DNA from: a virus | Virus record (IMG/VR): IMGVR_UViG_3300037805_000525 | Span: 1 to 64,000 of that record | Strand: one strand, 5' to 3' | DNA length: 64,000 bases | The notes under the pieces: model-generated | Databases searched by the model: none | What the model was told of the DNA's origin: nothing | The model's input: the letters and a program-made list of their open reading frames with translations, nothing else | Part shown: piece after piece, positions 1,736-56,223 of the stretch | How the letters are laid out: every line of letters starts with the position of its first letter | How positions within the stretch are numbered: the stretch's first letter is position 1 | Translations under genes and position numbers: made by a program

Positions 1736-4700
1736 TTACTCCGCGGCCTCGATGGTAACCATGCTCATATCAGCGACCGTAACATGGGTACCGCTGTCGA
1801 GGAGGAGCCGACTCTCCGTGCGGAAAAGGCTCAGCCTACGGTCGCGGCCCATGATGAGGAACCCGGCGCGCATCGGCAGCGTGGCGTAAGTCACACCGAT
1901 GTTGGCTAGGGCACGAAGTAGGTCGAACACCTCAAACACGCGGCTCGGGTACACGGTCTTCATGTACTCGGCCGTTGCGAGTCGAATGGCGTCTAGCGAG
2001 GCGGTACCTGCCACCTTGAGCGTAACTGCCGGGTACGCTGGCGCGAAATGCTTGACCAGCACGTTATGGCAGATCGCCCGCGTGTCTTCCCGAAGAAGGA
2101 ACTCTTGTACGTCCCCGACCTCCGCGCAGGTCTCAACCTGCGCAGATAGCGTGCTATCGGACAAGACGATGGCCGGCTGCAGCGACCGTGCCCCTGGCAG
2201 CAAGAGTGTGGGCGTGACGCTGACGGCGAAATCCTCCAAGACGGAAAGCGCATAAGAGTCCTCCGCCTGTACGTAGTCGTACCCGAGCGTTGTGTAGCCC
2301 GCGATGGTCATGGCCTCGAAGCCGCCCAGGTTCCCGTCCTGTGGGTCCTGGGAGACGATCTTCACGTTCGCGTAGAAGAATGCGCCGTCCGCAATCATCT
2401 GGTCCGGGTACACGACCTGGGCGGCAGCCCGGTTGACCTCGACGGAGTAGCGCGCGCCGTTCCCCCAGGTACGCTCGGGCAAGACGATGTAGGAGGTATC
2501 AGTGACGGAATCGTAGTCAAGCGACGCCACCGTGTACGTCTTAAAGTATGTCGACAGACCAGGCTTGTTGTTGGTGATCGCCAGGGATCCGTTGAACCCG
2601 AGCGTGTCCAGGATCCCGGGAGTACCCGCGTCTGCGACGTACACATGCTGCGCGCTGTGGATGCGCAGGCGATCTGCGTCCACGTCGGCTAGCATGTACG
2701 CTCCGAGCTGCGCGTTGATAGCCGACGCGACCTCGTCAAATCCGACCACACCAACGTCCTGGAAGGTCACGGCGAATTGTGCGTCGTCCACCGAGAACAC
2801 AAGGCGCTGTCCGGTGATCGAGAACGCAGGCGACACATTCACCTCGGTGAGTATGTCCGTCGACACCACCACCAGCTCGTCGCCTGCCCGAATGCCTGCG
2901 GCGAACAGGTTGAAGTCGAACGCGAGCCGTGCACCAACCAGGGCGCCTTCCAGCTCCGACACGCACGACGGCGTACTGTCCGCGCTGGAGAAGATCTCGG
3001 CCTCCTCATCCTGCGACGGGCGGAACGTGCGCGAGGCGCCGTCCGCGCTGTCTGCGGTAAGAACCGTGGTCTGATCCACGTACAGGTACGTACGGTCCTT
3101 GAAGTACACCTTCGCGGTTGCGAGTGCTGGGCGACCGACCGTGAAGCCTACGCCAGACACGTTCGTCGAGCCGACAACGCGATCTAGCGTGAGTGTGGAC
3201 GCCGTCAAGGAGGCCACATAGAAGTGCCGAAGGCCCGCGTCCTGCAGATCGAGTCGCACGGCATCGTTAACGCGTACGCCCTCCACAGCCCAGTCGAACC
3301 CGCCGGCGGTTACTGTAAGCGTCGCGGGGCCCACTGCGTCACACGCCAGTGTGGCATTTTGGCCGACGAGGTCATCCGTTACGGGGTCATCGTTGAAGGA
3401 GGACACCACGGGCGGCGCCACCTCAAGCGGGTGCCTGTAAGGCACGGGAAGTGTCCCGTCAGTGGTCGCTACCTCGAGTGACCGCAGTCGAGTCGCCACA
3501 CCCGTGTACACTTCGGAATCCTGCACGAAGAAGACTCGGTACGCGGCAGCGGCGACACTTGCCAAGATCGGCTCAGTCAGCGTGAGCGTGAATGCACCTT
3601 TGGCACTCACGCGGTACACGCCTTTCGCAGCACCCTCAGTGATCTCCATGTACACGACGTAACTGCTGGGGTCGGCAGTGAACACAATCCCGGTGGGGAC
3701 ACGTACGGTGTACGTACCTGCCGTAGTGATCATGTTCTCGCCGTGCTGTACGAGTACCTTCGGTTCCGCGACACCTGTGGTCGCTGAGCGCACAAGCTGC
3801 CAGCGCAGCCCGACCACCGGGCCAGACAGCCCGTCGAACGTACCTGCGATCTTCACGCCACCTGCGACGTTGTTCAGTGGGCGGAAGGAGGTAATCGACA
3901 GCACACTCGGTGGCTCGAGAATGATTACTGACAGGCTAGAGCCATCTGGTAGCGCGCCAACATACTTGTACTCGCCTGAGCTTAGAGCGTGCACACCTGC
4001 GAGGTAGGACGCAAGCGCGGGGCTGAAGAACGACGAGTCGGACGCCGCCGGATCGACACGCCCATCTCCGCCTTCTGCAACGATGTCGCCCCATGCGGTG
4101 TTCTCAGGCGAGGACACGTAGGACACACCAGTAACCGGGTAGTCGCTGGCGCTGAGGTACACATCCACCAAGCCCCCCATGTGGACTTCGTTCGCGTTGA
4201 ACTGCATCCCGGCGCCGTACTGCTCCGGGAACGGGACGCTACCAGGCATGCCCGTGACGGTGAGCTCTGTCCCGGTGTCCACTGACGCATCCGAAGCGCC
4301 GTAGACCTGCAGCACCTGGTTGTAGAGGCTCGTCCCGAGCGCTGCGGCCCACGTAGGCTCGTCGATGAGCGTGTGTGGGCCGCACGGGTGTGGGAGAAGT
4401 CGACCAGACAATGCGGCTGGGTTGGGTTCCGGGGCTGCCCACCCGACACTGCTTCCGTCTGCGGCTACCTGCGTTTGTCCGCCCACAGCAGGCAGTAGCG
4501 TGGGGGCGTACACGGTCGGGCGCACCACGCCCGACTGCACTTCACGGTCGGCCCAGGTCGGGTACAGCAACTTGAGCAGGTCGGTCTTGTGCGTGAGCGA
4601 CATGTCCAAGTCAACCAGCGTGGCCGCCCAGGCGCGGCCTACTGCGGAATCTGCGCGGAGCTCTTCCGCGAAGTGCTCCTCTAGGCGTACAACAAAGGCC

Positions 4701-6979
4701 CGATGCGACGGGGCGCTCTGGTCGATGGCGGTGTTCTCTGTCGACAGCACGTCCGAGTACAGCCCGTCATCCTTGTACGTGGAGCGCCAAGGGGGCTCAA
4801 TGTCCCCGGCCGCGCCTGCCTTCGCGTACGCCGGGAGGAACTCAAAGTTGTCGTAGGACACGAACTCCGCACCATCGGGCGACACCTGGGCGCGAGTGCC
4901 GCCGTACAACGTCCACAGAAGCCTATACACGCCTCCGTGCGTAGGATCGAACGTGCCGGACGGCCAATCGAATGCGGCGGTCTCAGACGCACTCATTGTG
5001 TCCAGCGGGTATGTGGCCAGGCCTTCCACGCGCAGCGTGTGGTCGGAGGGGATCTCAACGATGCGGCCCCACGCGTGCCACAACACACTCGCGGGCTCCT
5101 GCGCTAGCGTCCCGTCGAAGTACGCACCACCAACGCCGGTAACGTCGTCGTCGACGGACACGGCAACGGAAATGTAGTCGCCTATGGACGCCCCGCGAGA
5201 CTGCCAGCTAGGTGTCGTGGGCTCGAGAGAAATCTCGGCGCGGTTCGAGTCTGTCCCGAGCCCGCCTGACCACACGACCCAGCTTGTGGGGTCCTTCAGC
5301 TGCAGAGTTGCTCCCGCGTTTCGTGTCCAGTCGGACTTCGTGACGCCATCGTAGCGTGTCACAGCCGCGGACTCGCCATAGGCTGGACTGCCGAAGCCCT
5401 TCACATCGACGCCCAGGTGGAAGCTCAGCGAGTCGTCAGTTTCTGGGTACTCGTACAGGCTGCCCACTACGCCCGTACGCTCCTGGTCCGACATGAACGC
5501 GGAGCGCCGCGCCACACGCAGGTAGTTGTCCGTGGGTGAGAGCGCCGCGATCGGATGCATACTCACCGAATCGTGGATGTCGAAGCCCGCACGCGCCTGA
5601 ATACCTGCGCTTGCGAGTACCAAGAAGTCGCGACCCTGCGCGGCTGTCGCAGGCAGCCCAGGAAGCCCTGCGTAGTTTGCGGTGTCCGTGAACGGCAGCG
5701 GTGCGCCACGGAGGTATGTCGTCCCGCTGTAGTCGGTCAGCATCGACCAATAGGTGCCCCGCGCGGGGCTCGGGTTGTACGACACGCCGCCTGCAGCGGT
5801 GTCGATCGTCCCGCCACTCGATGCGGCCAGATCGCTAGCGGGCGCTGGGTACACTGTGAAGTCTGCGAGTACGAGGACTACGTCCGTGCCGTTTGCTACG
5901 GCGCGCGTGACTCGACGCAGGCGACCGAACTCTGCGTCAGCGTAATGCCCGTTGCCGTCGACGACGCGTACATACCGCGCGTTAAGGATGGTCGCCTGTT
6001 GGTCAGCGGTGATGTCACGCACGACCAACCTGTTCGTGAACGGGAACTCTGCGCCGGCGTCCAAGCTGACTACGCGGTCGGACCTGAAGCGGCTCGTTGT
6101 CATCAGTAGGTCACCCACGCCGGCATCAGCCGAGGGGAGCTCCACGGAGAGTATGTCGCGCGTCATCTCCGGTTCTCCGAACCCGACTGCGCGCACAACC
6201 TCCACTGTGCTGAAGTACGGGAGGATGAGCGCCTCTATGCCACGTACGGTCGTTGGGCTGCGCTCGGACACCATGCGTACGGCACGGTCCAGGAAGTCCG
6301 CGTTGGACTCACGCTCTGAGCCTGCGCGAAGCTGGGAGATGTTCGTGACCTTGACCACGCCCTCGACGCCACTCACAGAAGTAAGCAGCCCAGGGGCTAC
6401 TGAGACCGAGGTGGGCTCAAGGGACCGCACCTCAATGTCGATGTAGTACAGCGCGCCACTGCGGCGAAGGTCCTCCTCGCGCACCAGTACGGCGATGTCG
6501 GGGACGTACTGCAGGCCGCGCGCAGTAGAGAATACGGTTGATTGGTCGAAGCCTACGCTGCGGGGTGTGTCGAAGAATACGCGAGCGTACCCGACGCCGT
6601 AGTTCCCTTGGTCACGCGTAACGAACAGGTTGGACAGCTTCCGGTCCACCTCGTCGTCCGACAGCGCTTCTGGGTCATCCGTGGCGTTGGCCGCGGTCAT
6701 CCGGCCGATCTCAATGCGGTACGGCTCAAGCAGCGCCATCAGCGGGTTTACAAACAAGTCTGTGAAGTTCGAGCCCGCGGTCACATCGATCTCTGGGAAG
6801 GTCTCCCGGATGCGCTCGGTGACGAACGCAGCGATGTCTACGACGCGGGCGTCGGTACCCATCCGACGAATCATGGGGTCGATGACGACGGTGTGCATCC
6901 GCGCGCCAGGTGAGGTGCTCAGCGTTGGATCCAACACACTCAACCGAGTGGTCAGGAAGTCGCGGATGTCGTCGTACAT
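1736..6979 (-). CDS. Giant baseplate J-like protein (1747 aa)
   Basis: The N-terminal part reads like baseplate wedge protein J (P2 gpJ/T4 gp6 class). Residues about 1-100 contain a TDLFVNPLMALLEPYR-type helix region, and residues about 215-245 contain LRAGSERESNADFLDRAVRM, the family's conserved turn with the pattern E-S-x-x-F-x-x-R. J-like proteins are usually about 300-700 aa. Here more than 1400 extra residues of beta-rich sequence follow, probably inserted or appended domains that decorate the baseplate. ATG 6979 is preceded by GAGGCAGCAC, and a TATAAT lies further upstream on the same strand. The stop at 1736 almost touches the next gene. The J assignment rests on motif reading only; the rest of the protein is unassigned. 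Confidence 0.72.
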   Translation of the reverse strand: MYDDIRDFLTTRLSVLDPTLSTSPGARMHTVVIDPMIRRMGTDARVVDIAAFVTERIRETFPEIDVTAGSNFTDLFVNPLMALLEPYRIEIGRMTAANATDDPEALSDDEVDRKLSNLFVTRDQGNYGVGYARVFFDTPRSVGFDQSTVFSTARGLQYVPDIAVLVREEDLRRSGALYYIDIEVRSLEPTSVSVAPGLLTSVSGVEGVVKVTNISQLRAGSERESNADFLDRAVRMVSERSPTTVRGIEALILPYFSTVEVVRAVGFGEPEMTRDILSVELPSADAGVGDLLMTTSRFRSDRVVSLDAGAEFPFTNRLVVRDITADQQATILNARYVRVVDGNGHYADAEFGRLRRVTRAVANGTDVVLVLADFTVYPAPASDLAASSGGTIDTAAGGVSYNPSPARGTYWSMLTDYSGTTYLRGAPLPFTDTANYAGLPGLPATAAQGRDFLVLASAGIQARAGFDIHDSVSMHPIAALSPTDNYLRVARRSAFMSDQERTGVVGSLYEYPETDDSLSFHLGVDVKGFGSPAYGESAAVTRYDGVTKSDWTRNAGATLQLKDPTSWVVWSGGLGTDSNRAEISLEPTTPSWQSRGASIGDYISVAVSVDDDVTGVGGAYFDGTLAQEPASVLWHAWGRIVEIPSDHTLRVEGLATYPLDTMSASETAAFDWPSGTFDPTHGGVYRLLWTLYGGTRAQVSPDGAEFVSYDNFEFLPAYAKAGAAGDIEPPWRSTYKDDGLYSDVLSTENTAIDQSAPSHRAFVVRLEEHFAEELRADSAVGRAWAATLVDLDMSLTHKTDLLKLLYPTWADREVQSGVVRPTVYAPTLLPAVGGQTQVAADGSSVGWAAPEPNPAALSGRLLPHPCGPHTLIDEPTWAAALGTSLYNQVLQVYGASDASVDTGTELTVTGMPGSVPFPEQYGAGMQFNANEVHMGGLVDVYLSASDYPVTGVSYVSSPENTAWGDIVAEGGDGRVDPAASDSSFFSPALASYLAGVHALSSGEYKYVGALPDGSSLSVIILEPPSVLSITSFRPLNNVAGGVKIAGTFDGLSGPVVGLRWQLVRSATTGVAEPKVLVQHGENMITTAGTYTVRVPTGIVFTADPSSYVVYMEITEGAAKGVYRVSAKGAFTLTLTEPILASVAAAAYRVFFVQDSEVYTGVATRLRSLEVATTDGTLPVPYRHPLEVAPPVVSSFNDDPVTDDLVGQNATLACDAVGPATLTVTAGGFDWAVEGVRVNDAVRLDLQDAGLRHFYVASLTASTLTLDRVVGSTNVSGVGFTVGRPALATAKVYFKDRTYLYVDQTTVLTADSADGASRTFRPSQDEEAEIFSSADSTPSCVSELEGALVGARLAFDFNLFAAGIRAGDELVVVSTDILTEVNVSPAFSITGQRLVFSVDDAQFAVTFQDVGVVGFDEVASAINAQLGAYMLADVDADRLRIHSAQHVYVADAGTPGILDTLGFNGSLAITNNKPGLSTYFKTYTVASLDYDSVTDTSYIVLPERTWGNGARYSVEVNRAAAQVVYPDQMIADGAFFYANVKIVSQDPQDGNLGGFEAMTIAGYTTLGYDYVQAEDSYALSVLEDFAVSVTPTLLLPGARSLQPAIVLSDSTLSAQVETCAEVGDVQEFLLREDTRAICHNVLVKHFAPAYPAVTLKVAGTASLDAIRLATAEYMKTVYPSRVFEVFDLLRALANIGVTYATLPMRAGFLIMGRDRRLSLFRTESRLLLDSGTHVTVADMSMVTIEAAE

Positions 6980-7034: not shown

Positions 7035-7355
7035 TTACTCTCCGGTGGAAAGGGACTGCACGTAGTTGCTGGGCAGTCGCTTCTCTCGGGCAGGTCGTAG
7101 GGCGGCGGTGCGTGCCTGGAAGGCGTCCGACACCGCGCGCATCTTCTCGCCGTGCGTGATGATCGTGTCGTCGGCGAACACGAGGCCGCCCTCTGTGTCG
7201 TCATCCTGTGTGACGCGGAGGTACGGGCGAGACTCCGGGTCATTCGGTGCGATGATCTCCAGCGAGTACCCCGCTGGGTGCAGGAGGATTCGGTTCGCCT
7301 CCACGAGGATTCCGGCTTTCCGAATCTGGTCGAGCGTCATTTCTTGGCGGGCCAT
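7035..7355 (-). CDS. Small protein with an NRxxLHPxGY module
   Basis: A 106-aa protein. AGGAG before ATG 7355 supports the start. Residues 20-75 carry ANRILLHPAGYSLE, then an acidic beta segment (LRVTQDDDTEG) and a short helix with KMRAV. The same module recurs near the C-terminus of the GroES-like fusion at 21102-22442 (NRNVLHPLGYAL, then WRTDDPKGIWFD and KLRAA). The function is unknown. It lies between virion genes, just upstream of the baseplate-J gene, so it may act in assembly. Confidence 0.7.
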   Translation of the reverse strand: MARQEMTLDQIRKAGILVEANRILLHPAGYSLEIIAPNDPESRPYLRVTQDDDTEGGLVFADDTIITHGEKMRAVSDAFQARTAALRPAREKRLPSNYVQSLSTGE

Positions 7356-20730: not shown

Positions 20731-21105
20731 TTACCACCCGTCAAGCCGGCGGTCCGCCGCTTTGGCGCGCCACACCTCGATAAAGAACCCACACACGTAT
20801 AGCCCGTAATGGCCTTCTACTGTGTGCGCTACGTACGGGTACCACTTGAGCGGAGTGTCCTCATCCCACCCCCACCCGATCAGACACATCAGCGTACGTT
20901 TCCAGGGGCGGAGTCCCGTTGCGAGAAAGACTGCGGCAAAGCTGTCGGGACCTGACAGGAACCACCCGGCTTCGGTCTGAACCGCGCACGTTGTCTTCAG
21001 TGCTCGGATCCTCAGCGACAGGAGCGGGCCATTGGTTATGTTCGCTTCGGTGCCGCAGAACATTGCGCGCACGCCAGACCACACGGTGCGCAGTGCGTCT
21101 CTCAC
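20731..21105 (-). CDS. Hypothetical protein, 124 aa
   Basis: GTG 21105 overlaps the stop of the GroES-like fusion gene (GTGA). Beta-rich with many aromatic residues (LMCLIGWGWDEDTPLKWYPY, GHYGLYVCGFFIEVW). Last gene of a three-gene minus-strand operon. It may act with the GroES-like protein. Confidence 0.68.
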   Translation of the reverse strand: MRDALRTVWSGVRAMFCGTEANITNGPLLSLRIRALKTTCAVQTEAGWFLSGPDSFAAVFLATGLRPWKRTLMCLIGWGWDEDTPLKWYPYVAHTVEGHYGLYVCGFFIEVWRAKAADRRLDGW

Positions 21106-22442
21106 GACTTCTCTACCTTTTCCGCGTTGTACACGTCGCCGAAGGGGTTCTCCGCAGTGCGTGTACACACGGGGATGTACCCCACGGGATGATTTGGATC
21201 ATCGAGTGAGTAGACCGGGATGGTGCCCCGCGGCCGTGTCTTGCGTTCGGAATCCTCCTGTGCTGCGAGCGCGCCGAACGCACGGATGGTGTCCTGGGCG
21301 TCGGTTGTACGGATCAGTGGCCGCTTGGGTTCCTGAGCCGCTTGCGCGGGCTGCACAATGAACCCTGGGTCCACATCTCGCCCAGAGCGCGCCGCCTTCG
21401 CCACCTGCGCCGCACGCAGTTTGGTTGCCGCATCCGCGAAGTGGCTCGGCTTGAACGCAGCGCGATCGAACCAGATGCCCTTGGGATCGTCGGTTCGCCA
21501 CATGAACATCGCCTCGGCGTCCTCGTTGATACCGAGCGCGTACCCGAGCGGGTGCAGGACGTTGCGGTTGATCTCTGCGAGCGCGCCAGTCGACCAGATT
21601 TCCGTGTAGTCCGCCGTCGTCGCGTGCGCGTACTGGTTCTTGGGTAGGTGGAACTGCGTGTTCGCTGCGCCGGCTAAGCGGTTCGTCTGCCGGAGTACCT
21701 CTGCGATGACCTCCTGAGCGAGCGGACCCATCCCCGCGAGGTCCTCTGGCTGGCAGTACCGGCACAGTGCGTTGGTGATGCGCCACGCGAGCTTCTTGGT
21801 GTTCTCGGTTACTGCGTACGCGTCGTCTTTCAGGGACTCATCACGCGTGGCGGGGTAGCCCTCCATAGCTGATCGGAAGGTGCTGTCAGCCGGGATGGGC
21901 TCAGTTGTACAACCCATGCTGTAGGGCACTGGCTTGCCAGACTCTAGCCGCGCTGCTAGATCCCCCGCGTACGCCTCCCACCCTGGCCCGCGAGAGGCGT
22001 CGACCGCGCGCCTTGACTCGGAGGATAAGTGGCGCACGCCCGGCGCCTCTGCAATGGGTACGGGCATGCCTGGAATAGCTGGTGCTGGTCCGGAGATGAA
22101 GACGTCACCATTTGCGTTGACCTCTGTGCGTTGCGGGACATGCGCGACGGTTAGCGAGCACCGGTGCTTCTCGGCATCCTCGTCACTGAGTTCCGCAATG
22201 ACGAGGACGTCCGCCTTCTCCAAGATGAGGTGGGTCACCCCAGCAATGCTGATCTCAGTCCCGGCACCCTCCGCAAAGAAGACGTGGTTGCCCTCTTTGA
22301 TCGCCTCGAACGCGTACAGGTTGTCAGCCAGCTGGGACAGTCCTGGGTGCACAACTACGCCGTGGGGGGACGTGCTGTGCGGGTGCTCCAGCCTGTCTAG
22401 GCGTTTAACAAGAATTGTGCCGGTGGGTGTGAACAGCTTCAT
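21102..22442 (-). CDS. GroES-like co-chaperonin domain fused to a phage module, 446 aa
   Basis: GGAGG five bases before ATG 22442 fixes the start. Residues 1-85 follow the Cpn10/GroES pattern: ILVKRLDRLE, then GVVVHPG, then IKEGNHVFFAEGAGTEISIAG, then HLILEKADVLVIAE (GroES has the same order of K-R, G-x-V, V-K-x-G-D-x-V-x-F, G-T-E and I-L-x-x-x-D-I-L-A). The GroES mobile loop region is short and unusual. Residues about 90-285 are unassigned, with Cys residues at 227 and 230. Residues 289-352 carry the NRNVLHPLGY module shared with the 106-aa protein at 7035. GroES itself is about 97 aa. It may redirect host GroEL to virion or accessory proteins; that is inference. Confidence 0.7.
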   Translation of the reverse strand: MKLFTPTGTILVKRLDRLEHPHSTSPHGVVVHPGLSQLADNLYAFEAIKEGNHVFFAEGAGTEISIAGVTHLILEKADVLVIAELSDEDAEKHRCSLTVAHVPQRTEVNANGDVFISGPAPAIPGMPVPIAEAPGVRHLSSESRRAVDASRGPGWEAYAGDLAARLESGKPVPYSMGCTTEPIPADSTFRSAMEGYPATRDESLKDDAYAVTENTKKLAWRITNALCRYCQPEDLAGMGPLAQEVIAEVLRQTNRLAGAANTQFHLPKNQYAHATTADYTEIWSTGALAEINRNVLHPLGYALGINEDAEAMFMWRTDDPKGIWFDRAAFKPSHFADAATKLRAAQVAKAARSGRDVDPGFIVQPAQAAQEPKRPLIRTTDAQDTIRAFGALAAQEDSERKTRPRGTIPVYSLDDPNHPVGYIPVCTRTAENPFGDVYNAEKVEKS

Positions 22443-22471
22443 GCGCGCCTCCGTGTTGAGTGCGCAATGTA

Positions 22472-22867
22472 CTACACCTGCGCTACAGGCTCCGCAGAAT
22501 TGATCCGAAGCCATACGGCGGGGAACGCAGCTTCCGCGTCTGCACACGCATCCACGAAGCTGAGCGAGGGTGTTGGGAGGAAGAACGTGGTGCTGCTGGC
22601 GTAGCGCGTGTCACCTGTCCGGTCCCACATACCAAGAATCGTCCAGTACGCTACGTGCGTGAGCAGCGCCCGGCTCTGCTTCTGCATTGACCTGCGGTGG
22701 GACACAGTGTTTGTGCCCGGTGCATACGTGCCGTCTGGCGTAAGCGGCAGCCCTTGCTCGCGCAGCATTGTGTACGACGGGTGGTGGCCAGCCGCTGTGT
22801 AGTACCGGTGCCCTACGGCACCCCACACACCAAACATTACTGGGGCGCGCTCTACGGTTTCGGCCAC
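22472..22867 (-). CDS. Hypothetical protein, 131 aa, first gene of the GroES-like operon
   Basis: GAGG precedes GTG 22867. Rich in aromatic and small residues (VWGAVGHRYYTAAGHHPSY). No motif was recognised. A palindrome copy lies 37 bases upstream, between this gene and divergent unit E. Confidence 0.66.
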   Translation of the reverse strand: MAETVERAPVMFGVWGAVGHRYYTAAGHHPSYTMLREQGLPLTPDGTYAPGTNTVSHRRSMQKQSRALLTHVAYWTILGMWDRTGDTRYASSTTFFLPTPSLSFVDACADAEAAFPAVWLRINSAEPVAQV

Positions 22868-25529: not shown

Positions 25530-26119
25530 CACCCGTAGACACTCTCAGGTACTCATTCGTGAAGACGCACCTGTTCGGAATCCGTCACGGTGAGTGCTTC
25601 CCGGGCATAAGCCTCGTGGACGCGGACAAGTCGGAGTGTATGCAGCTCGGCACGGCACAGGGGTGGCTGCGCACAGCACTTCAGGGATATCCCGTGGTGA
25701 TTCGTCGAGAAGACGCGCTGAAGTTGCGAATCTGGTGCATGACCACTGACGACGCCTACGGTGACCTCCCGATCGCCGTAGCATTGGACACGCTTGCGTA
25801 CCTGAAGTACGTCAGCGAACTCCCGCCGGAACGCGCGACGGGTGTTGAGCAGACGCGTCGTAACGATCACGTTCGGGCGTTGCGTGAGATGCCTTTCCTC
25901 GTGGTCACTGAGCGCCTGAAGTCGCGTACGAAGCTGAACCCGGTAGGCACGTCCTACTGCAATCACCCACACGACTTGTCGACAGGTCGCCCGATTGGTC
26001 ACGAGTGCTACGTGTTGCCGCCGAAGGCCCTCGTTGCGGAGCGTGCCGGGAACGTTGAGTTGAGCATCGAACTCATCCACCAGGCCAAGCCGCTGAAGCA
26101 CCACATGGGTGCACGATGA
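25526..26119 (+). CDS. Hypothetical protein, 197 aa
   Basis: ATGA overlaps on both sides; directly upstream of the DHFR gene. Contains a Cys/His-rich segment near the C-terminus (YCNHPHDLSTGRPIGHEC). Could be metal-binding. Function unknown. Confidence 0.68.
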   Translation: MTPVDTLRYSFVKTHLFGIRHGECFPGISLVDADKSECMQLGTAQGWLRTALQGYPVVIRREDALKLRIWCMTTDDAYGDLPIAVALDTLAYLKYVSELPPERATGVEQTRRNDHVRALREMPFLVVTERLKSRTKLNPVGTSYCNHPHDLSTGRPIGHECYVLPPKALVAERAGNVELSIELIHQAKPLKHHMGAR

Positions 26120-26670
26120 TTGAGATCATCGCAGCAATGGACAAGCGTAGGCTCATCGGCAAGGACGGCGGACTCCCATGGAGCGCCCCCGCAGACCTCC
26201 GCAGGTTCGCCGAGTACACGAAGGGTGGGACGCTCCTGATGGGGCGCAAGACCTTCGAGAGCATCGGGCGGCCGCTGCGCGGGCGGCGCAATGTGGTGGT
26301 ATCTCGCAACCCTGACTGGCGCCCGAAGGGTGTCAGCCTGTTCGGTAGCCTGGAGGCCGCGCTCAGCTCTATGGAGGGCGGTGAGCATGTGTACGTCATC
26401 GGTGGAGCGAGTCTCTACAAGTCCACGATCCCATTCGCGGCGCGCATGCGCCTCACCCTGGTCCACGGCGAGTATCAAGGTGACACGTACTTTCCTCGAC
26501 TCGGAGGAGCGGACGATGAGCCTGTGGGGTGTCGCCGCTGGCAGGTGACCCAATCCAGGCACTACCCCGCAGACGCCAACAACCCGCCAACAACCGACTA
26601 CACCCTAAACGTGGGGCACGGGCGCTGGCCTGACGCCATTAGGTTGTGGTCCGCAGACGAGGAGTTCTGA
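26116..26670 (+). CDS. folA: Dihydrofolate reductase
   Basis: A 184-aa protein reducing 7,8-dihydrofolate to tetrahydrofolate with NADPH, supporting thymidylate and purine synthesis in the cytoplasm. The key landmarks match E. coli numbering closely: LPW at 20-22, the catalytic acid Asp27 in ADLRRF, GRKTFESIGRPL at 43-54, the NADPH-binding IGG at 95-97 and DTYFP at 123-127. It is about 25 residues longer than E. coli FolA, with a C-terminal extension containing a His/Tyr/Trp-rich stretch. No thymidylate synthase gene is visible nearby. It is coupled to both neighbours (ATGA upstream, TGATG downstream). Confidence 0.95.
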   Translation: MIEIIAAMDKRRLIGKDGGLPWSAPADLRRFAEYTKGGTLLMGRKTFESIGRPLRGRRNVVVSRNPDWRPKGVSLFGSLEAALSSMEGGEHVYVIGGASLYKSTIPFAARMRLTLVHGEYQGDTYFPRLGGADDEPVGCRRWQVTQSRHYPADANNPPTTDYTLNVGHGRWPDAIRLWSADEEF

Positions 26671-53983: not shown

Positions 53984-55327
53984 TCAGCTCGTGAGTAGGT
54001 AGCCGCCGCCAGCGACCCCTGCGGCCGGAAGGAGCCGCAGCATCTCGTTCTTGACGCGTTCTGCACGGATGCGGGCGGACAGCGCGGTGATTCCACGCGC
54101 TGTCCCAAGACCTGCCACAGAGCCCGCCAGCGCGCCAGGGACGGCCTTGCGTGCGAGCAGCGACCCGGCAACTGCGCCGAGCATCGGTAGGGACCGCAGA
54201 GCTGACGCGGACTTGACGTTGGCGCCAAGCAACTCACGTAGCTTGCGCACAGCAGCGCGTGCAGCCGCCGGCGGGTCCATACGTGTCTCTACTGATCGCA
54301 CAGGATTCAGAAGGTCATGCAGGTTACGGTTTGGCCGCACTCGGCCAAGGAGATCAAGGCGCCCACCCGCGGGGGCTCGCAGCTGGCTCCGCACCAGGCG
54401 CGACAGCTCACCGGGTACCGCAATCGCGCGCTGCAGGATTTCTCGGGCACCCGCGGTCTTCTCGTGAGACACCTTGGTGACCGGGGACCCTGCGCGCCAC
54501 AACGCTTGGTTGAACGCATCGTGGAACGGCGGATCGAACTTCCTACCTGCCGCGACCCGGTCGTAGCGTGCCTGTGCGGCTGCGACGTCGGCGGGCATTC
54601 CGCGTGCCTGCGCGGCTGCGCGTCGGTGCGTGGGGCTTGCTGCCCGGCGCGCACCCGCCATTGCCGGACGCATACGCATACGCAACCAGCTAAGCAGCCC
54701 AGGTACGGATTTCACGCCCCGGCCTGCCATCCGCGCACTACCTAGTAGGCCACGGCCTGCCAGCCGCGCCCCGCCCACTGCGCCCTTACCAAGAAGCCGA
54801 GCGCCGGCAACTGAACCAATGAGCGCGGCGCGGCTGGCTGGGTGGTTCATGGCCCTTGTGAGGCCATGGCCTAGGTCCCAAGCCATGTTGCTGCGCAGGT
54901 TGGAGAAGATCTTGCCGAACGGGATAGCCGCCTCTTTAACAGGGAGCTGATCCGCGGCGAGGTGTGCCGCGACAACGGCGTCTTCAGGTGTTTCGCCGGG
55001 GCGGCCTATTACGCTCCGTGTCTTGTCGCCGAGCATGTCGGCTAGTTCGTCACGGTTGTGGTACGCCAACAAGCCGGCGCCAGCGGCGGCCAGAGGCAGG
55101 TACGGGAACGACCGACGTGGCCGTACCGTGTGGCCAAGCAGCGCGGCCGCGGCAACAGGTGTCAGCGCACCGACTGCCGCGATTCCCGCATCGCGCGCAA
55201 ACGTGGTTTGCGCGCTGGACCTCTTCTCGCGAAGCTCGGCCATGACGCGGCTACGCACGCCGCGGCGCTCAGCGTGCGTAGCCGCACTGACGTGTATGGT
55301 AAGTCTTGGTGAGTCCATTATGCTCAT
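53984..55327 (-). CDS. Arg/Ala-rich internal virion protein with hydrophobic segments, 447 aa
   Basis: ATG 55327 overlaps the sigma-factor stop (ATGA). Several hydrophobic stretches (AAVGALTPVAAAALLGH, LPLAAAGAGLLAY, LPMLGAVAGSLLA) alternate with strongly basic Arg/Ala/Gly regions. VSHEKTAGA and LPVKEAAIP are short motifs of unknown meaning. Composition resembles ejected or membrane-active virion proteins. Function inferred. Confidence 0.6.
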   Translation of the reverse strand: MSIMDSPRLTIHVSAATHAERRGVRSRVMAELREKRSSAQTTFARDAGIAAVGALTPVAAAALLGHTVRPRRSFPYLPLAAAGAGLLAYHNRDELADMLGDKTRSVIGRPGETPEDAVVAAHLAADQLPVKEAAIPFGKIFSNLRSNMAWDLGHGLTRAMNHPASRAALIGSVAGARLLGKGAVGGARLAGRGLLGSARMAGRGVKSVPGLLSWLRMRMRPAMAGARRAASPTHRRAAAQARGMPADVAAAQARYDRVAAGRKFDPPFHDAFNQALWRAGSPVTKVSHEKTAGAREILQRAIAVPGELSRLVRSQLRAPAGGRLDLLGRVRPNRNLHDLLNPVRSVETRMDPPAAARAAVRKLRELLGANVKSASALRSLPMLGAVAGSLLARKAVPGALAGSVAGLGTARGITALSARIRAERVKNEMLRLLPAAGVAGGGYLLTS

Positions 55328-56223
55328 GGTGCCTCGTCCAGGTATCCGCGCAATCTCTTCGCGAGGTCCTTTTTTATACGTGATACTCGGTAGCTTTCGA
55401 TGCCGAGCTTTTCTGCGATCTCGCCGGTGCCCAGCATGGGGGCCCCGAGCCCTACAACGTGTCGGTAGACCTTCTCGTCTTCCCCGTCCAACTCGTACAC
55501 GAACATGCGCATGACCTCAGTCTCGCGCTCCGTGGTCATTGTGGTGGGGTCAACCTCAAAGTTCTGACTTACCAGGTCCCCACGTAGCTCAGTGTCCATC
55601 CGGGCGACTTCGGCCTCGGACCAGTCCAGGTGGTCCGCGAGCTCCGCGTCTGTCGGTGTGCGCTTGTGCTGCTCGGACAGTTCCGCGTGAGCGACGGAGT
55701 ATCCCTGAATCTTGTAAACACGGTTCTCTGGGATGCGCGCCACATTCTGGTGCGCGGCCACGTAGCGCTTCACCTTGTGTAGATGGTTCGCAATGTGGGT
55801 GTTGAGCTGTGTTCCACGTTCCGGGTCGTACGTGCGCAGTGCCTTGACCGTACTTAACTTGTACTGCGCCATCAGTGCCTTGTCCGGGATCATCCGTACG
55901 CGGCCCATGTGAATCTTGGCACGTGATTTGATGAACGGGGTCAGGCTCTTCATCAGCGGGGCGAGCTTCTCAGGATCTTCGCCAGAGTCCTTCCACGCCT
56001 GCCACATCGCCATCTCAGACTCACGTCGAGACAGCTTCATGGCGTCGGCAGCACGCTCTTTGACGCCATCACGCGTGTAGCGGGTGACGATGGTGAGCGC
56101 GCCGTCGCGCTTCTTGCGCAGGTGGGCCTTGACGTCGATGCGTCCGGCGGGTCCGGCGGGTGCGCGCTTCTTCTCGGCGAGCTTCAGAAACTCCCCGATA
56201 TGATCTTCACTCGAGGTCGTCAT
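55324..56223 (-). CDS. Sigma-70-family RNA polymerase sigma factor, 299 aa
   Basis: AGGTGA precedes ATG 56223. Region 2 spans residues about 88-160, with the core-binding and -10 helix pattern VKALRTYDPERGTQLNTHIA. Region 3-like helices span about 165-222 (HAELSEQHKRTPTDAELADH). Region 4 spans about 235-295 with an HTH at 266-290 (TGEIAEKLGIESYRVSRIKK). The pattern is closest to alternative sigma factors such as FliA/RpoS; group 1 region 1.1 is absent. It would direct host RNA polymerase to phage promoters. The repeated promoter in this window (GCAAAN, 16 bases, CATAAG) departs from the standard sigma-70 -35 and could be its target; that link is inference. Confidence 0.82.
   Translation of the reverse strand: MTTSSEDHIGEFLKLAEKKRAPAGPAGRIDVKAHLRKKRDGALTIVTRYTRDGVKERAADAMKLSRRESEMAMWQAWKDSGEDPEKLAPLMKSLTPFIKSRAKIHMGRVRMIPDKALMAQYKLSTVKALRTYDPERGTQLNTHIANHLHKVKRYVAAHQNVARIPENRVYKIQGYSVAHAELSEQHKRTPTDAELADHLDWSEAEVARMDTELRGDLVSQNFEVDPTTMTTERETEVMRMFVYELDGEDEKVYRHVVGLGAPMLGTGEIAEKLGIESYRVSRIKKDLAKRLRGYLDEAP

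Follow-up and report, generated by a model that had tools for sequence, protein, structure and literature searches.

The window analysed here, bases 1-64000 of the 109,093-base virus record IMGVR_UViG_3300037805_000525, has a gene set that includes a myovirus-type tail (a baseplate wedge gp6-like protein and a tail sheath) and a sigma-factor-like gene. At 21102-22442 lies the gene P0001, apart from the virion gene block and on its own within a run of small plus-strand genes. The first-pass annotation had described a fusion gene at this position without naming its strand; the open frame is real and runs on the minus strand—the plus-strand reading of the same bases being full of stops—and its 446-aa product is, as claimed, over four times the length of GroES. 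Translation starts at the ATG at 22442, with a GGAGG (22448-22452) 5 bases upstream. The codon-position G+C of P0001 (0.65/0.48/0.75) matches that of the baseplate gene of the same phage (0.64/0.48/0.76), and the composition stays broadly alike across all five segments, which argues for one coding frame and against a chance ORF. The features discussed below are as follows.

1736-6979, minus strand: baseplate wedge-like gene, 1747 aa (phrog_6, E 1.1e-10)
7035-7355, minus strand: stand-alone DUF7415/phrog_3954-type protein, 106 aa (viral module HMM)
21102-22442, minus strand: fusion gene P0001, 446 aa plus stop (open frame, GGAGG, typical codon-position composition)
22188-22442, minus strand: predicted Cpn10/GroES-type beta-barrel, residues 1-85 (PF00166, NCBIfam, AlphaFold, Foldseek)
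22362-22400, minus strand: shortened linker in the place of the mobile loop, residues 15-27, LDRLEHPHSTSPH (viral GroES comparison)
21993-22187, minus strand: proline/alanine-rich linker, residues 86-150 (no family or PDB match)
21615-21992, minus strand: predicted helical region, residues 151-276 (low-to-middling model confidence; no relatives found)
21345-21614, minus strand: DUF7415/phrog_3954-type module, residues 277-366 (phrog_3954, viral HMM, invariant residues, Foldseek)
21105-21344, minus strand: C-terminal region, residues 367-446, predicted helix plus beta-hairpin (382-424) (no relatives found)
22472-22867, minus strand: possible 131-aa gene directly upstream of P0001 (weak coding evidence)

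A family search with the 131-aa ORF gave nothing above chance; being on the same strand, this ORF and P0001 possibly form a two-gene operon.

The N-terminal barrel and its shortened loop

Profile matches and the predicted fold both indicate that residues 1-85 of P0001 are a real Cpn10/GroES-type barrel, in line with the GroES likeness originally proposed for them. Residues 26-81 match the Pfam Cpn10 family (PF00166) with an E-value of 2.4e-4 and 21.5 bits, above the curated cut-off of 21.1; PHROG GroES matches at 2.5e-4, and ten NCBIfam GroES models do so with scores under the strict NCBIfam cut-offs. Using an HMM derived from 39 viral proteins and E. coli GroES, P0001 was the sole match among the 795 ORFs of the window. 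The whole-domain GroES profile scored 35.9 bits against 3.5 ± 2.2 for shuffled sequences (maximum 13.1), and the conserved first barrel strand alone reached 9.8 bits, a score equalled by none of 2000 shuffles. An AlphaFold model of the barrel, the input for which included an alignment of 30 viral GroES proteins, had a mean pLDDT of 80.9 and placed strands at residues 9-15, 27-32, 53-56, 62-66, 69-75 and 79-83. When this model was compared with the PDB using Foldseek, the top 34 matches were all Cpn10-family chains (best E 4.6e-6), followed by a sharp drop, and the top matches in a viral library were again GroES proteins; the predicted fold thus agrees with Cpn10, with the qualification that the canonical GroES alignment partly imposes it, so that the fold evidence is not wholly independent of the sequence evidence. 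The end strands that GroES uses for subunit pairing are retained, and the roof hairpin stretch is 16 aa long (9-19 in other GroES), with no strands predicted there. A search for close relatives of the barrel found none, and a weak Cpn10 resemblance in a structural protein of phage CBB turned out to be at chance level. Separately, we observed a 174-aa viral protein (L091:1237-1758, in G023) in which a weak match to Cpn10 follows a cysteine-rich N-terminal part, possibly another type of Cpn10 fusion.

The known phage co-chaperonins are small lids for GroEL with a single domain. GroES binds GroEL directly through its mobile loop, residues 17-34 (PMC5653362), in which Ile-Val-Leu contacts GroEL and the exchange L27A abolishes the interaction (PMC3514286); the mobile loop of T4 gp31 is longer still, with 22 residues instead of 16 (PMC6318259). 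P0001 shares with the GroES/Cpn10 family (PF00166, including T4 gp31 and RB49 CocO) the beta-barrel, as judged by profile and predicted fold, and the pairing strands, but it is joined to other domains and its mobile-loop stretch is about ten residues shorter. The linker between its first two strands measures 13 aa, as opposed to 21-24 aa in all 30 viral GroES proteins compared, and is devoid of the hydrophobic triplet; the strict loop motif occurs in 28 of those 30, and a mobile loop with a GroEL-binding hydrophobic tripeptide is absent from P0001.

An alternative placement, with HGVVVHPG as the loop, was considered and rejected: it would cost the barrel a strand and scores 26.0 bits, a 10-bit penalty relative to the alignment with loop loss. 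HGVVVH forms a barrel strand both in the AlphaFold model and in local HMM alignments. Alignments of few sequences are ambiguous in this respect—MAFFT can set HGVVVHPG on the loop motif—whereas deep ones agree on loop loss. The shortening of the loop is thus shown at the sequence level, and the barrel appears to have lost the GroEL-binding mobile loop altogether. Of the co-chaperonin pattern read into residues 1-85 by the first-pass annotation, the barrel therefore stands and the mobile loop does not. The further suggestion that the fusion delivers substrates to host GroEL finds no support, since a 13-aa linker with no hydrophobic triplet makes a conventional substrate-delivering GroEL lid unlikely.

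The DUF7415/phrog_3954-type module and its company

Residues 277-366 match phrog_3954 with an E-value of 9.8e-6. An HMM of modules from other viruses, from which both proteins of this phage had been excluded, matched exactly two of the 795 window ORFs: P0001 (1e-14) and the stand-alone ORF at 7035-7355 (4.5e-13), which precedes the baseplate wedge gene, on the same strand, by 55 bases. The C-terminal module had been said to recur alone beside the baseplate gene; the recurrence is borne out, but it concerns only about 90 aa and not the whole 360 aa, and what had been called an uncharacterised module, though indeed so in function, belongs to the already known phrog_3954/DUF7415 family. Nine module columns are invariant over 41 sequences, P0001 among them, and all nine hold in P0001; the family motif E-x-N-R-x2-L-H-P-x-G corresponds to residues E290, N292, R293, L296, H297, P298 and G300. 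In the viral library, the best Foldseek matches of the module were DUF7415 proteins, with probabilities of up to 0.99 though an E-value of 0.03, and its sequence gave no match in the PDB. The Pfam model of DUF7415, PF24187, did not match P0001 directly up to an E-value of 1; applied to intermediate module relatives, it matched two (L018 and L011) weakly and a third (L049) at 2.4e-13. The two modules of this phage, which may be duplicates of each other, both sit on long branches. Barrel and module were treated in two separate models; MAFFT misplaced the GroES rows in a combined all-domain alignment.

A single pattern scan of viral contigs yielded 77 module relatives, the majority of them stand-alone and roughly 95-110 aa long, and DUF7415 proper is known from 892 or more phage records, T4-like and T5-like ones among them. 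In P0001, by contrast, the module is the C-terminal domain of a Cpn10 protein. A close parallel exists in LR745206.1, an uncultured phage of 634,780 bases, where a module is likewise joined to a host-type co-chaperone (L005:2989-3687); there the module is N-terminal and is joined to the Hsp70-system protein GrpE (PF01025, E 7.7e-19, residues 85-229), with a DnaJ gene (L005:4554-5636) 0.9 kb downstream. This fusion is probably derived, because six other viral GrpE proteins all lack the module. Another viral contig (L060:2968-4389) contains two overlapping tandem module ORFs and, 14 bases further on, a J-domain ORF (E 1e-16). Both module fusions to a recognised domain met here thus have a co-chaperone as partner (2/2), which is suggestive of a tie between the module and folding machines. 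J-domain genes were present in 13 of 50 virus records with the module and in 2 of 40 with GroES (p = 0.01 by record), but the module-bearing set consists of longer records and the enrichment loses its significance per base (p = 0.16); we accordingly rejected it as a significant association. The neighbours of stand-alone modules showed no constant theme, and neither GroEL nor DnaJ was found in the contig of P0001. A phage J-domain protein, encoded by gene 057w of the T4-related phage RB43, has been characterised experimentally (PMC3486835). It resembles the present case as a phage-encoded co-chaperone engaging a host chaperone, and RB43 also carries a DUF7415 protein; it differs in belonging to the Hsp70 system, with no DUF7415 fusion known.

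The remaining parts of P0001, residues 86-276 and 367-446 (~270 residues), gave no relatives in family searches, nor did 86-276 in the PDB, and the confidence of their structure models is modest. Whole-length relatives were absent from 50,697 phage records, and from viral and genome contigs in searches that reach close relatives only. None of the 50 module-bearing virus records contained a module-Cpn10 fusion, and none of 73 viral GroES loci a module. The same virus group, as defined by the major capsid protein, was represented by distant members only (G005 and G011), neither with a GroES-like gene above chance, and a literature search found no description of a phage Cpn10 fusion. As far as these searches reach, the architecture of P0001 and its loopless Cpn10 are new, both parts being members of known families.

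Possible roles of the fusion protein

The reading that we tentatively put forward—quite possible, short of probable—is that P0001 is a folding or assembly adaptor of a myovirus-type phage, made of a loopless Cpn10 barrel, an unassigned middle predicted to be helical and a DUF7415/phrog_3954-type module on display. The barrel probably forms a ring, or at least a scaffold, because the end strands of GroES subunit pairing are kept. A ring or barrel of this kind would present several copies of the module; as an adaptor, the module would bind a folding partner or client proteins of the phage, so that P0001 would be engaged in phage folding or assembly rather than in capping host GroEL. Several lines of evidence point this way: the Cpn10 fold with its conserved first strand, the 13-aa loop stretch and the 10-bit preference for loop loss; the module with all its invariant residues, its fusion to GrpE near a DnaJ gene, and the tandem modules next to a J-domain; and, at the level of records, the J-domain counts in module-bearing viruses, together with the lack of GroEL and DnaJ genes in this contig. 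Against it stand the 892 phage DUF7415 records with no known chaperone link, the lack of a constant theme around stand-alone modules, the J-domain enrichment that fades per base, the six other viral GrpE proteins devoid of the module, the single instance of the fusion and a barrel model that leans on the canonical GroES alignment. A more general proposal is decidedly doubtful: that modules of the DUF7415 type serve to target clients or partners and have been put on varied co-chaperones (GroES-type here, GrpE in LR745206, with J-domain neighbours in L060), the GroES barrel serving here as a ring-shaped display platform. Should the adaptor reading be true, a part of the chaperone machinery would have been reused—a Cpn10 barrel minus its GroEL grip plus a phage domain. 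The two independent fusions to co-chaperones also provide a first, testable functional lead for DUF7415, one that connects it with protein folding.

The strongest rival is a structural role unrelated to folding: the barrel would serve for structure or binding, with no chaperone link, for instance within a virion protein or an assembly protein; we regard it as a serious possibility, though on balance an unlikely one. GroES-like barrels also serve in other enzymes, and the loss of the mobile loop, the minus-strand orientation shared with the virion genes and the position of the stand-alone module beside the gene for the 1747-aa baseplate protein would all suit such a role. P0001 itself, however, is isolated among small plus-strand genes away from the virion gene block, and the module-GrpE fusion and the adjacency of module and J-domain point to folding instead. 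It is improbable that P0001 is a working phage co-chaperonin with an unusually short loop, which would cap a host (perhaps unusual) GroEL and use its fused parts to hold or select phage substrates. Its significant GroES similarity and Cpn10 fold, the precedent of phage co-chaperonins such as T4 gp31 (PMC6318259) and the few-sequence MAFFT alignments of HGVVVHPG to the loop motif speak for this view; the short, triplet-free linker and the assignment of HGVVVH to a strand, by the model, local HMM alignments and the bit cost of loop placement alike, speak against it, and a GroEL lid would presumably be crowded by seven 38-kDa tails.

The loss of the loop from an otherwise GroES-like barrel could mark a decoy or inhibitor, a defective lid blocking host co-chaperonin function, but a loopless barrel has no known means of docking to GroEL, nothing suggests that it poisons host GroES by mixing with it as a subunit, and the large extra domains would go unexplained; we consider this very improbable. 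Hardly credible at all is an artefact, that is, a chimeric assembly or a read-through joining two genes: the fusion is a single instance with no whole-length relative, yet its codon-position composition is broadly even over the whole frame and the gene has its own ribosome-binding site.

Further features of the contig

Apart from P0001, several observations on the contig and related sequences were made. A 19-base near-palindrome, ATTATCACA(C/G)TGTGATAAT, has 24 sites in the 109-kb contig, mostly intergenic, and suggests an operator, stoperator or promoter element used throughout the phage. In the window, the central base is C (T at one site) to the left of 36 kb, where the genes lie on the plus strand, and G (A at one site) to the right of 42 kb, where they lie on the minus strand. 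The sigma-70-like factor listed here is a candidate partner of these repeats.

7420, 11867, 14961, 17643, 20713, 22903, 24227, 28379, 32744, 35972, 41979, 47258, 48068, 53637, 58157, 62074: near-palindrome sites in the window
26116-26670, plus strand: phage dihydrofolate reductase (PF00186, E 1.4e-46)
55324-56223, minus strand: sigma-70-like factor (region 3 match, 5.2e-8)

Beyond the window, at 105.7-108.9 kb of the contig (L004:1723-4938, minus strand), four consecutive and otherwise different proteins of 151-362 aa have in common an N-terminal peptide of the type SVFDPRFLRHxTKLA, possibly a tag for targeting or packaging. Finally, a minus-strand frame near the capsid gene (L003:11108-11698) contains a long proline-glutamate (PE) repeat.
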